From assembly GCA_900155495.1 (NCBI GenBank), contig FTLJ01000293.1:1-64000 (forward strand): 64,000 nucleotides of DNA, read 5' to 3'. The position numbers and the translations under genes were made by a program. The notes below the pieces were generated by a model that made no database searches, was not told the DNA's origin, and saw nothing but the letters and a program-made list of their open reading frames with translations. This DNA comes from Porogramme epimiltina. Taxonomy: Eukaryota; Basidiomycota; Agaricomycetes; Polyporales; Polyporaceae. Positions 21,479 to 61,613 of the stretch are shown piece by piece (positions within the stretch are counted from its first letter, which is position 1; each line of letters starts with the position of its first letter).

Positions 21479-22134
21479 TTATTCGATGCGAAGAGTCCTC
21501 AAAAGACCCTCCATTCGACACTGATCATATCCGATCATTCCGAGTGACCCTTCGCATGCCATGCGATCGAGATTCACGCGATAACCGGCTGGGAGGAACG
21601 TATTTATGCCCCCGATAAGGGCAGGTTTGTCCTGGAAGAGCTCCACGACGTGCTGCACGACTTCAACGGTGTCGAGCCTGCATGCGCATACCTATGTCAG
21701 CAGTGCCAACAGGCAGAACGGTAAGGTAATCCCGGCACTCACTGCCCCAGGCTGAACTGCTTCAGCACTTGGCGAAACGCTGCGGTAATTTCTGGTCTAT
21801 TCGCGTATGTGGCGTCTACCTCCCTGAGGTACCTCAGAGCGTCCTCCTTCCCTGGGCGCCCTTCTGTGGGCTCTGGTGGGACGATGGACGGGTAGGGATC
21901 CCTAGGCGGTGGCGTGCGACGAAGGTCGGGGCCAGGAACCAGGAGGAGGGTCCGAGCTCCCAAGCCTGATGGATCACGCATTATGGATGTGGTGTGGTGG
22001 CGGAGGTGCTGTAAGCCCTGATGTTAGTGAGCGAGTAGAGATAGTGGCGTGAGCAACATACAGGGAGAAGGGGATGTTGGAGGTGATGAGGGAAGCGGGG
22101 TGTTCTGCTTCTTCAAACTCTCGAGGTGGGCCAT
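21479..22134 (-). CDS. Single-PAH (Sin3-type) protein A, 164 aa
   Basis: Exons are 22134-22062, 21965-21743 and 21677-21479. Residues 66-133 form one paired amphipathic helix domain: helix 1 DALRYLREVDATYANRP, helix 2 TAAFRQVLKQF, helix 3 VVQHVVELFQDKPALIGGIN and the closing FLPAGYRV. The conserved intron sits exactly between helix 2 and helix 3, as in the three other PAH genes here. The N terminus is proline/serine-rich. Sin3 uses PAH domains to grip amphipathic helices of transcription factors, but this protein has no HDAC-interaction region and is far too short to be Sin3. The upstream exon was chosen because it joins in frame; starting instead at the ATG at 21981 would give 145 aa. Confidence 0.72.
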
Positions 22135-22721
22135 GTTTTATATTTTCTCCACAGCCACCTGCTACGTGGACCCAGTGGCGGGGCAGTGTTGTCCTGTAGC
22201 CCGAGGACAGGAGCCATAGCCCAGGCCAATACGCCCCGTCGTTGTCTCAGCCGGGTGACGGTGTGGCGGGACCACCGTTCTTGCCGAGAGAGGCGTGGAT
22301 ACCTTGTCCAGCCCGAAGGAAAGCAGTGCAGAAGTTGCTGTACATGCATTACTCGTGGCATGGAGTGTTGTTATGATAATCTCGTGGGTGTGCTTCGAAT
22401 GATCTTAGCACACCCGCGCATGCACGTACTTTTTGTTCGACCTGCAGCCGGAAATACAAAGCCAAGGTTGTTGTGGAAGAAGGAGAAGAATAGCTGCAGC
22501 TGGTTCGAGCCGTCAGACAATCACCGGCTCAAAACATGCGCCACAGCCGGTAGACGCTGATGATAGGACGGCCCGGCGGGCCGTGCCCCCACACACCCCG
22601 AAGGTATCGGAATCCTGCCTGACTCCAGGCGGTTGGCAGGTTCTGTGGCTGGGGGTTCCGGAGACAGGCAGATGGCATATCCTACAGAAGCGCTACACAT
22701 AGCACGAAAGGTGACTTTGCA
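22135..22721. other. Intergenic between PAH genes A and B
   Basis: It contains the upstream region of PAH A and the 3' flank of PAH B. No additional gene is recognised. Confidence 0.45.
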
Positions 22722-23174
22722 TTAAAAATCTCCGTTGGGGCCGGTGAAAGTGATAGCCCCGCCGTCTACAGGAATGTTAATGTGGTACATGGGAGGCAGG
22801 AAGGCGTTGAAGCCTTCGAGCAGGTTACGATGATCTTGGAAGAGCCCCGCGAGTTGGGTCATTACTTCCTCTGAGGTAAGTCTGAAAGGGTTTCGTTTTA
22901 GTACATTACCATGGATGGACGTTCATTAAGAGCCAGTGATAGCTAGAGGTAGTGGGGACCCCCCGTAGTAATGTTAATGACGCAGTATCACTCACTCGTG
23001 GTTTCTAAACTTGAGTAATGTGGCGAGGAACGACTTGTACACCTCAGAACCCCTCCCATAGACAGCCTTGACGTCGTCGAGGTAGCGAAGTGCAGCCGTC
23101 AACTCAGGGGTTTGGGTAGGAACACCAAACATCGGCGCCCGGGCTGGGTCTACTGGGGGAGCTGTCCCTTCCAT
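22722..23174 (-). CDS. Single-PAH (Sin3-type) protein B, 112 aa
   Basis: Exons are 23174-22996 and 22881-22722. Residues 27-95 form a PAH domain: AALRYLDDVKAVYGRGSEVY, SFLATLLKF, then after the intron EEVMTQLAGLFQDHRNLLEG and FNAFLPPMYHINI. The acceptor CCTTTCAG at 22882 is the one that keeps the frame; two nearer AGs lead to early stops. The protein is almost nothing but the PAH fold, with a 26-residue N-terminal tail and an 18-residue C-terminal tail. It lies head-to-tail with PAH A, about 590 bp apart, suggesting local duplication, though the two are quite diverged. An expressed PAH alone could titrate Sin3 ligands (inference). Confidence 0.72.
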
Positions 23175-59237: not shown

Positions 59238-59793
59238 ATGAAGTTCACCGTCATCTTCGCTCTCGCTCTCGTCAACAGTAAGTAGCTCTCATTACCACGA
59301 GCTCCCCGACAGCGCCTAACCCACACCCCCAACAGTCGCTGCTGCGACCTACCTCCCGCGCGCCCCGGCTGGCACCCAGTTCATCACCGGCCCCTGCCAG
59401 AGCGACGCCGACTGTGCGTCCAGCTGCTGCGGCTTCCGCTCCGGCAAGTGCGCCGGCCCCGTCATCGCGCAGGAGCGCGACGGCGGCTGCGGCTTCGGCG
59501 ACGCGCAGCCCAACGACATCGCCGCGCAGAAGTTCCGCGCCGGCCAGGCCGCGTCCGCGCCCGCCGCGGCGGCCCCGCCCCCGACGTCCGCCGCGCCCGC
59601 GATCGCGCCCGGCACGCAGTTCATCACCGGCCCGTGCTCGAGCGACGCGGACTGCGCGTCCGGCTGCTGCGGCTTCAACAGCGGCCTGTGCGCCGGCCCC
59701 GTCATCGCCCAGACGCGTGACGGCGGCTGCGGCCACGGCGACGCCCAACCCAACGACATCGCGGCTCAGAAATTCCGCGCTGGCCAGGCCTGA
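59238..59793 (+). CDS. Secreted cysteine-rich protein with two BAS2-like domains, 165 aa
   Basis: Exons are 59238-59277 and 59336-59793. A signal peptide (KFTVIFALALVNIAAA) is followed by two copies of a module of about 55 residues: APAGTQFITGPCQSDADC, ASSCCGF, GKCAGPVIAQERDGGCG, FGDAQPNDIAAQKFRAGQA; the second starts at APGTQFITGPCSSDADC. Each has six cysteines including a CC pair. The modules are joined by an Ala/Pro linker. This is the family of Magnaporthe biotrophy-associated secreted protein 2 (BAS2), also common in saprotrophic basidiomycetes, so pathogenicity does not follow. Most family members I know have a single module; the duplication is notable. Biochemical function is unknown. 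Confidence 0.87.
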
Positions 59794-60472
59794 GGCCCTC
59801 CGTTGGTTGGTTTCTTGACGAATCTTCATGTTTGATGTGGTTGTGTGCGATGCTGGCGTTGTTGGGAACGGATTGGAGTAATTTATTGCAGGCAATGTAG
59901 ACTCAATGCAGACTTTCCTTTTTTACCGTTTATTTCGCTTGGTGTGATCCACGGAATGATTGGAGACAAGCCTTCAAAGCCGGGCAATCAGGGTGATTGC
60001 GTACAGATAGTCAGAGAGCTGATAGTGGATGTTATCGCGCCTGTGAACAGCTGTGAGTAGGCTGTAGGCTGTTGAGGTTTTTCCTGCGAATGATCTTCAT
60101 TCCCGAACTAGTGATTGCATTTCATGATGACAATGAGTCCAGGCGAGCAGTGCCCACTCCGAAAGTTCTTATGAGGGGAAGAAAGCCATAGAAGGAGATA
60201 TCAGCAACTTTCACGCCGATGGAGGGTAGGATCTCACGTGTGGTACGTGGATCGGATGGATCGGATTTCTGGGGAGATCTGGTCCATGCAGCTGAGGTGC
60301 GTATCAGCCATCGGGTCTTGAGTACTGAATCGTTCTCCCATATATATGTACATGTATCTTTTGTGTCCCCCTTTGTGTCGCCACTTCTTATCACCCTACT
60401 AAGAACCTCAGTGTCGTCTGGGGTCTCTTCGAGAGGCACGGAGCCATAGACAACAAAGAGAACAGCTTCCCC
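59794..60472. other. Intergenic: BAS2-like 3' flank and PAH D promoter
   Basis: No gene. At 60225-60320 there is a block (TCACGTG, ATCGGATTTC, GCTGAGGTGCGTATCAGCC) shared with the window's right end and partly with the PAH C upstream region. A TATA box lies at 60338-60345. Confidence 0.5.
60338..60345 (+). promoter_or_regulatory. TATA box of PAH gene D
   Basis: CATATATA/TATATG-type sequence about 130 bases upstream of the ATG at 60473 and just after the shared PAH promoter block. Confidence 0.45.
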
Positions 60473-61613
60473 ATGGAGCATCGCGCCCATGCAACACACA
60501 CCACTCGCAGTAGTCCTGCGACACTCCACATCCCTCTTCCATTCCAACCTACGGACGCGGACCCCGCAAATGCCCCCATAGAGGGTCTACATGATGTCTC
60601 CGCCTCACACCCTCTGTCCGCGAGCCCGCCAGCTCAATCCGAGGGTGGTGATAGGCCGCTTCATTTCCACAACGCGGTGGGCTATCACGACGCGGTGGGC
60701 TATCACGACGCACTGGGCTATCGCGACGCACTGGGCTATCTGAACACTATCGAGGCCCAATTTCTGGAGCAGCCGGAGGTGTTCAAGAAGTTTGTGGGTA
60801 TCTTGAAGGACTTTGAAGCGCAACTGTGAGTGAGCAGACTTCATCGATACCATCATTATGGGATAGTCGATGCTTTAGTGCATCGCGTCCCAATATTCTT
60901 TATACTTGCCCCGTTCTAACCATCTTCCCCTCCGTCGTAGAATCGATACACCTGGGGTCATTGAACGAGTCATGAACCTCTTTCACGGACACCCCGCACT
61001 CATCCAAGGCTTGAACACCTTCCTTCCTGAAGGATATCACATCGAGACAAATAACAACCCAGATCTCCCTGACCGTATCACCGTCATGATTCCTGCTGGA
61101 ACTACCACTCAGGTAACCAATGCAGCATTCAACTACACTACAATCGAGCAGCGCGCCGTCGAGGGACTGACACAAGACCAGCGTTTAGAGAGATTCAAGC
61201 TCGCGGACGACTTTATAGATCAGGTATACGGACGGTATGCCAATCAACCAGGAGTTTACAAACGCTTCCTCGCGATCACGATGGAGGTCCCCCCGGCCCT
61301 AGAAACAACAGAGATCGAGAGGATGGAGTGGCAGGCGGTGCGGTGCTTGGTATTCAAGACGCTGCGAGAAGACCACGTTCACCGGATCATGGACCTGCTC
61401 AATGATAGTGTGCACTTGATGCGCGAACTTATTCAGTTCCTCCCCGATGATATGCGGCAAGCCGAGCTGGAGCGAGTCGTGGCACTCGGAAACGCGCGGA
61501 AGACGAACGGCGCGGATTTCAAGAGGAGGAGACGGGCACGCACCGAGCCGATGGTCTCGGTCGAAGGGGTGCCGTTGTCGGTGGAGGTTTACGATATGCT
61601 ACCCCAGCAATAG
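60473..61613 (+). CDS. Two-PAH (Sin3-type) protein D, 341 aa
   Basis: Exons are 60473-60825 and 60941-61613. It is a paralogue of PAH C with the same intron position. PAH1: DALGYLNTIEAQFLEQPEVF, KKFVGILKDFEAQL, IDTPGVIERVMNLFHGHPAL and LNTFLPEGYHIE. PAH2: ADDFIDQVYGRYANQPGVYK, RFLAITMEV, HVHRIMDLLNDSVHLMREL, IQFLPDD. A C-terminal extension with a basic patch FKRRRRARTE could be a nuclear localisation signal. The position equivalent to the PAH C start codon is ACG, so translation likely begins at the in-frame ATG 26 codons upstream. The start of PAH1 helix 1 carries a tandem amplification (see separate entry). No HDAC-interaction domain is present. Confidence 0.82.
60671..60739 (+). repeat. 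18-bp tandem repeat inside PAH gene D
   Basis: Three full and one partial 18-bp units (first at 60677) encode NAVGYH-DAVGYH-DALGYR-DALGYL. The last unit corresponds to the normal PAH helix-1 start (DALNYL in gene C). The expansion is in frame. Confidence 0.85.

Follow-up and report, generated by a model that had tools for sequence, protein, structure and literature searches.

Many transcription factors are linked to histone deacetylase (HDAC) through the scaffold Sin3, and one locus of the polypore Porogramme epimiltina raises the question of where proteins built from the paired amphipathic helix (PAH) domain of Sin3, and from nothing else recognisable, come from and what they could do. The DNA analysed, referred to here as the window, comprises 64,000 nucleotides, bases 1-64000 of contig FTLJ01000293.1 (C239) in an assembly of 41.9 Mb and 926 contigs. 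C239 runs 46 kb beyond the window, and the next 10 kb were examined as well (from the stretch 64.0-83.9 kb). A preliminary description had placed four PAH genes, A-D, in the window. All four are found there as intact two-exon frames with GT-AG introns, a fifth gene, E, lies past the right edge, and a gene for full-length Sin3 starts 2.9 kb to the right of that edge. The comparisons below give good support to C, D and E being 5′ partial duplicates of this adjoining Sin3 gene.

The gene models were built by homology and splice rules and are predicted, with no transcript behind them. In each of A-D, one phase-2 intron interrupts PAH1, at a shared position as had been reported, and no other Pfam family passes its cut-off. 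All five proteins score above the curated cut-off of the PAH family PF02671, which is 21.3 bits. The earlier count of one or two PAH domains holds with a qualification: A and B have one PAH each, and C and D have PAH1 followed by a region that aligns with Sin3 PAH2, the latter unscored by Pfam alone. At a loose limit of E-value 10, Pfam scores one PAH stretch in C, one in D and two in E, and up to the same limit neither PF08295 (HDAC-interaction domain) nor PF16879 (Sin3a_C) is matched in A-E. Chance similarity is excluded by the Pfam E-values, 7e-8 to 1e-20 across A-D, and for C and D also by long DNA similarity to Sin3. The genes had been called dispersed through the window; four do lie within it, but they are better described as part of a cluster that covers 21.5-66 kb of the contig and adjoins the parental Sin3.

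The evidence for descent comes from DNA comparison and phylogeny. The match to Sin3 runs from the upstream flank to just past PAH2, with a DNA identity of 75% in C, 71% in D and 72% in E, and the PAH1 intron is retained. All three copies break off before PAH3, the HDAC-interaction domain and the Sin3a_C domain. The first ATG of Sin3 has been lost in each of them, and their frames start at later in-frame ATGs. The protein identity between C and Sin3 is 71%. At the C-terminal end of D the frame differs from that of Sin3, the shift occurring only after the PAH2 region, and the same C-terminal end is found in two relatives of D exon 2, P0093 (98%) and P0023 (92%). In a PAH1-PAH2 tree of 25 rows, which supplies the comparison with Sin3 that had been proposed earlier, C, D, E, their relatives and the Sin3 of the same genome form one clade (support 100/99) that arises after the split from the Sin3 of Dichomitus, Ganoderma, Lentinus and Trametes. 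The C239 Sin3 itself groups with Polyporaceae, nearest to Dichomitus and Ganoderma, in a 37-row tree made by a quick method with no bootstrap from 35 of 120 listed proteins (1594 found) and two models of our own.

The genome-wide search for the PAH family, likewise proposed earlier, gave matches on three contigs, C239, C380 and C869, and the Sin3_corepress family was matched on C239 and C380. These assembly searches score the best candidates only, and copy counts are lower bounds. When the 5′ end of Sin3 was searched as DNA, it matched C239 and, weakly, C380; among the candidates scored assembly-wide, no further copy of the C239 Sin3 was found. Protein searches with C, B and A added a match of C on C823 (E-value 0.12) and of A on C152 (E-value 0.8), both taken as chance.

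Table 1. Coordinates of the PAH genes, the Sin3 gene and the duplicated stretches. Positions are those of the window, which equal those of C239; features past its right edge are given with the contig prefix.
Feature	Position	Strand	Intron	PF02671 E-value (bits)	Remarks
Gene A	21479..21981; exons 21743-21981, 21479-21677	-	65 bp, phase 2	7.2e-8 (32.5)	145 aa, one PAH
Gene B	22722..23174; exons 22996-23174, 22722-22881	-	114 bp, phase 2	5.1e-13 (49.0)	112 aa, one PAH
Duplicate of Sin3 5′ flank, PAH1, intron and PAH2	31615..32763	+			75% identical, DNA comparison
Gene C	31855..32788; exons 31855-32078, 32167-32788	+	88 bp	1.3e-20 (73.3)	281 aa, PAH1 and PAH2 region
Duplicate of Sin3 5′ end	60423..61541	+			71% identical, DNA comparison
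Gene D	60473..61613; exons 60473-60825, 60941-61613	+	115 bp	4.2e-16 (58.8)	341 aa, PAH1 and PAH2 region
In-frame tandem repeat in D	60678..60740	+			18 bp x 3.5; lengthens start of PAH1 helix 1; alignment
Fragment F	window part 63890..64000; whole C239:63890-64252	+			Sin3 upstream flank plus first codons, recently copied; 96% identical to Sin3
Gene E	C239:65047-66015			(47.8)	284 aa; past right edge of window; gene model
Full-length Sin3	C239:66920-71824				1504 aa, 7 exons; three PAH stretches, Sin3_corepress, Sin3a_C

Independent decay of full-length Sin3 copies, which the preliminary description had named as a refuting outcome, does not fit the way in which the copies end. C, D and E leave Sin3 at one point and have a 3′ flank in common, C in part: D and E share about 185 bp (71%) and C shares 79 bp with E. 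This flank is absent from Sin3 and was found nowhere else in the assembly search. Since both the truncation point and the 3′ flank are common to the copies, they probably go back to one truncated founder that then multiplied. Two results weigh against a single founder: the grouping of the six PAH-only rows has a support of only 38/0 in the best tree, and dS, the synonymous divergence, is 0.54-0.67 between copies, no lower than the 0.49-0.51 to Sin3. Pseudogene marks (intron loss, stops, frameshifts in the conserved domain) are absent from A-E, with the intron kept and the frame open in all five. Where D and E leave Sin3, the parental protein has the motif GDGHAS. A purine-rich run (C239:67989-68014; L015 3990-4015) lies at this same place, C leaving Sin3 slightly earlier.

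Fragment F spans the window edge and ends before PAH1. Its 96% identity to Sin3 implies that duplication is still going on. F combines about 220 bp from upstream of Sin3 with its first codons, and such a sequence is also what an RNA-level effect would use, in which transcripts or small RNAs from the partial copies would act in trans to silence Sin3, with an incidental protein frame. We consider this highly improbable as an account of the cluster: the DNA of C, D and E matches that of Sin3 at only 71-75%, an identity that is poor for small-RNA targeting, and their frames are kept.

A second, very divergent Sin3-like gene with PAH1-3 and Sin3_corepress lies at about 96.8-100.9 kb of C380 (G000, L016; model incomplete at the 3′ end). 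It is at most 41% identical to the 35 Agaricomycete Sin3 compared and has a branch of 3.5. In a tree of PAH1 domains (70 rows, 96 columns, bootstrap unsettled), its PAH1 groups with short Lanmaoa and Mycena proteins (95/96), and C869 carries a truncated, partial copy of the gene (82% over 497 bp). The C380 gene was considered and rejected as the source of C, D and E; its branch is very long, and the three copies resemble the C239 Sin3 far more closely. The C380 gene could be a second Sin3-like gene of ancient origin or foreign DNA; the GC content of two of its stretches is 0.588 and 0.601 versus 0.591 for the window.

Genes A and B, 0.7 kb apart on the minus strand, share 35% identity. What ties them to Sin3 is limited to the common intron position and PAH similarity; the PAH1 tree, in which their end branches measure 3.2 and 2.5, gives them no placement. 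They appear to be diverged single-PAH relatives and may descend from Sin3. The relative of A exon 1, P0241 (source 'ena'), has 80 aa and is 98% identical, and that of B exon 1, P0242, is two codons longer in frame by a comparison made by eye. A profile search with A and B, in which 273 candidates were scored, returned two proteins at an E-value of 0.01 or lower, both exon pieces, and no named relatives at that sensitivity.

As to what the proteins might do, we tentatively put forward, as the best reading but as possible rather than probable, that A-E are microProtein-like competitors for, or redirectors of, Sin3's PAH partners. In this mechanism, the truncated Sin3 copies would be translated, and PAH1, together with PAH2 where it is present, would take up their fold and engage part of the helical Sin3-interaction motifs through which Sin3 and HDAC normally reach promoters. 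Lacking the HDAC-binding part, the copies would then occupy these motifs unproductively or redirect them, and changes in the groove, such as the Glu of D described below, may narrow or shift the range of partners of each copy. The same layout is described, in the available excerpt of the source, for the mammalian isoform SIN3B(293), or SIN3B-SF, which like C, D and E has PAH1 and PAH2, a comparable length (293 versus 281-341 aa) and a unique short C-terminus, without the HDAC-interaction domain (PMC5902990). The layout of SIN3B(293) is not found in A and B, with their single PAH. SIN3B(293) arises by alternative splicing of one gene (PMC5902990), whereas C, D and E are separate, diverging loci. 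Competition for partners is possible among the SIN3B isoforms, and basal transcription is still repressed by the short form (PMC5902990). The copies also resemble microProteins, or small interfering peptides (siPEPs), which, in the part of the review available, retain a larger regulator's interaction domain but lack its effector part (PMC3794426). The loss of domains from a parent is seen directly for C, D and E and is putative for A and B. The microProtein cases named there concern transcription factors and their partners (PMC3794426), whereas here the parent is a corepressor scaffold and competition is putative.

PAH domains accommodate a single helix of the partner's Sin3-interaction motif in a hydrophobic cleft, according to the excerpt available (PMC6168491). 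The preliminary description had raised disabled grooves as a possibility; the hydrophobic PAH1 positions are mostly kept, yet the grooves are not all equivalent. Sin3 PAH1 has large hydrophobic residues at 28 of 75 positions, of which C keeps 28, D 28, E 25, A 23 and B 25, versus 26.0, 23.8, 21.7, 19.0 and 17.8, respectively, expected under neutral drift to the same distance. C matches solved PAH1 structures, including Sin3B PAH1 with NRSF (2czy) and Sin3A PAH1 (2rmr). With 2rmr numbered as residues 119-189 and positions mapped by hand via the alignment of C, human Ala126 and Lys155 correspond to a conserved Ala and Lys in C and Sin3. At the Lys155 position, Lys in C is replaced by Glu in D, Ala in E, Ser in A and Arg in B. 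In human Sin3A PAH1, the K155E substitution raises the dissociation constant (Kd) for Tet1 from 250 to 3900 nM (>15-fold) and that for SAP25 from 63 to 120 nM (2-fold), with stability unchanged (PMC13068551, excerpt). Given this effect and the Glu of D, the likely outcome for D is a shifted set of partners and not the collapse of its domain. A model of the four-helix PAH fold was made for one protein only, the Lenzites relative P0002.

The charge reversal in D at a position that sets partner affinity (PMC13068551), its lengthened helix-1 start and the fast replacement change of the copies would also suit adaptors with new partners, that is, proteins whose PAH domains recognise motifs not bound by Sin3 and, instead of competing with it, connect the proteins so bound with one another or with other complexes. 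We regard this as improbable, as there is no second recognisable domain to adapt through and C retains the parent's groove, with all 28 hydrophobic positions and Lys155.

The rate and pattern of change bear on whether the copies are functional. Across the six pairwise comparisons of Sin3, C, D and E, the ratio of nonsynonymous to synonymous rates (dN/dS) is 0.35-0.66 by NG86, with C versus Sin3 at 0.35, and 0.36-0.76 by YN00; upper bootstrap limits are 0.49-0.91. In neutral simulations that scored stops only (4000 runs each at a K of 0.25 per site, roughly half of dS), a frame remained stop-free by chance with a probability of 0.010 for C, 0.003 for D and 0.003 for E. Relatives in which the frame is kept occur in public entries ('ena', 'lgn'; same or close species) for D (98% and 92%), E (90%), A exon 1 (98%) and B exon 1; none was found for C in these entries. 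The introns of the copies are more alike than codon positions 1 and 2, and the frame is therefore guarded better than the sequence. A fair reading of the substitution pattern is a guarded frame around a fast-changing sequence.

The main and serious rival is that the copies are relaxed duplicates, 5′ fragments of Sin3 that arise by local segmental duplication, drift under weak constraint and mostly die without a selected role. Several observations point that way or weigh against competition for Sin3 partners. Fragment F is such a duplication, recent and ending before PAH1. The dN/dS reaches 0.66 by NG86 and 0.76 by YN00 (pair D-E), with an upper bootstrap limit of 0.91. Introns are 78-85% identical between copies versus 67-72% for codon positions 1 and 2. 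The proteins change fast: D shares 98% and 92% with its two relatives and E 90% with its own, versus 97.5% for Sin3 over the stretch compared, and the entries may differ in distance. The excess of hydrophobic residues over neutral drift falls below 0.05 only in D and B, two of the five genes. Lys155 is changed in four of the five, in B to the basic Arg, and the Glu of D, Ala of E and Ser of A could weaken binding. Finally, SIN3B(293) still represses basal transcription, so that loss of the HDAC-interaction domain need not give a pure decoy (PMC5902990). Relaxation sits less easily with frames and splice sites that are open in all five genes, at a dS of about 0.5 for C, D and E, with the small stop-free probabilities (0.003-0.010 each) and existing frame-keeping relatives, and with the hydrophobic pattern of B and D, kept beyond drift. 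We judge it somewhat unlikely.

The search of related fungi that had been proposed yielded short PAH proteins in other Agaricomycetes, with 480 proteins at an E-value of 0.01 or lower, many of them fragments, and the best 120 listed. From these 120, 18 named short proteins, two marked partial, were picked by eye for the PAH1 tree; further entries, named or partial, were not used, and the Sin3 entry P0145 was dropped for lack of match. Rows of this tree include second PAH domains, so that its label changes do not add up to a number of origins. In four lineages, short PAH proteins sit with their own lineage's Sin3 at starred support, the window's own being one of them (100/99, 25-row tree). Lenzites PAH-only proteins group with Trametes gibbosa Sin3 (100/97, 25-row tree), those of Ganoderma leucocontextum with Dichomitus/Ganoderma Sin3 (96/83, PAH1 tree) and those of Fibroporia with the Sin3 of their own lineage (100/99, PAH1 tree). 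By alignment, all four proteins compared, Lenzites P0002, Trametes gibbosa P0060, Ganoderma P0040 and Fibroporia P0043, are N-terminal pieces of their own lineage's Sin3, with gene models taken as deposited, some of which may be truncated. The Fibroporia, Ganoderma and Trametes gibbosa proteins end after PAH1. The Lenzites protein ends after PAH2 at GGDGHASSS, the motif at which E and D leave Sin3. The purine-rich point in Porogramme and the recurrence of this end motif in a separate PAH-only protein of Lenzites together hint at a breakage hotspot.

One ancestral PAH-only gene for the window and Lenzites copies was rejected by the approximately unbiased (AU) test (p 1e-52; group chosen after the PAH1 tree). 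Separate origins thus seem to hold for Lenzites by the AU test and for Ganoderma and Fibroporia by the tree; gene conversion by each species' own Sin3 could in principle imitate them. At its widest, the proposal would make Sin3 a recurrent microProtein source in mushroom-forming fungi, with separate 5′ partial duplications in several polypore lineages, at least two of them ending after PAH2 at GGDGHAS/GDGHAS, and with fast-changing competitors that retune which transcription factors recruit the HDAC complex. In this full form, we think it a long way from probable.

Other features lie among the PAH genes. C is flanked by two related genes (28934-30393 and 33361-34686, minus strand; 68% DNA identity) whose products are rich in Ser, Thr, Ala and Asp and have hydrophobic starts, an arrangement that suggests a segmental duplication around C. 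A ubiquitin carboxyl-terminal hydrolase gene (PF00443; 24154-27973, minus strand) lies between B and C. A Cys-rich stretch duplicated internally (180 bp, 86%) occurs in a small open frame just before D (59371-59790). Four similar genes in a row (40238-48774; DNA 63-78% identical) have a hydrophobic start and the motif NRTIDDE.GD..TGVKP.Y; no Pfam family was matched in the two that were tested.

The Arabidopsis gene AT1G24200, which we take to be short and to adjoin SNL3, belongs to the plant lineage and is an independent occurrence. It is annotated as a 'Paired amphipathic helix (PAH2) superfamily protein' and is a PAH gene of a genome with full-length SIN3-like genes as well (PMC4357605, excerpt). 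Detached PAH proteins are therefore already known, from SIN3B(293) and from this Arabidopsis gene (PMC4357605), as is the microProtein concept (PMC3794426). That a PAH-only expansion is poorly described, as had been supposed, agrees with the matches listed from the open-access literature, among which there is no description of one in fungi. As far as these open-access listings show, what is new is that in polypores Sin3 has given rise to such genes separately and repeatedly through partial duplication of its 5′ part, and that a single contig here carries the parent together with truncated copies and a fresh fragment. If true, repeated birth of PAH-only paralogues would amount to a gene-encoded titration of the factors that recruit Sin3. 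According to the available part of the review, it is unclear whether competitive small proteins converge on their competitors or share an ancestor with them and then lost domains (PMC3794426). The PAH-only births of these fungi, if true, would bear on this choice between convergence and domain loss.

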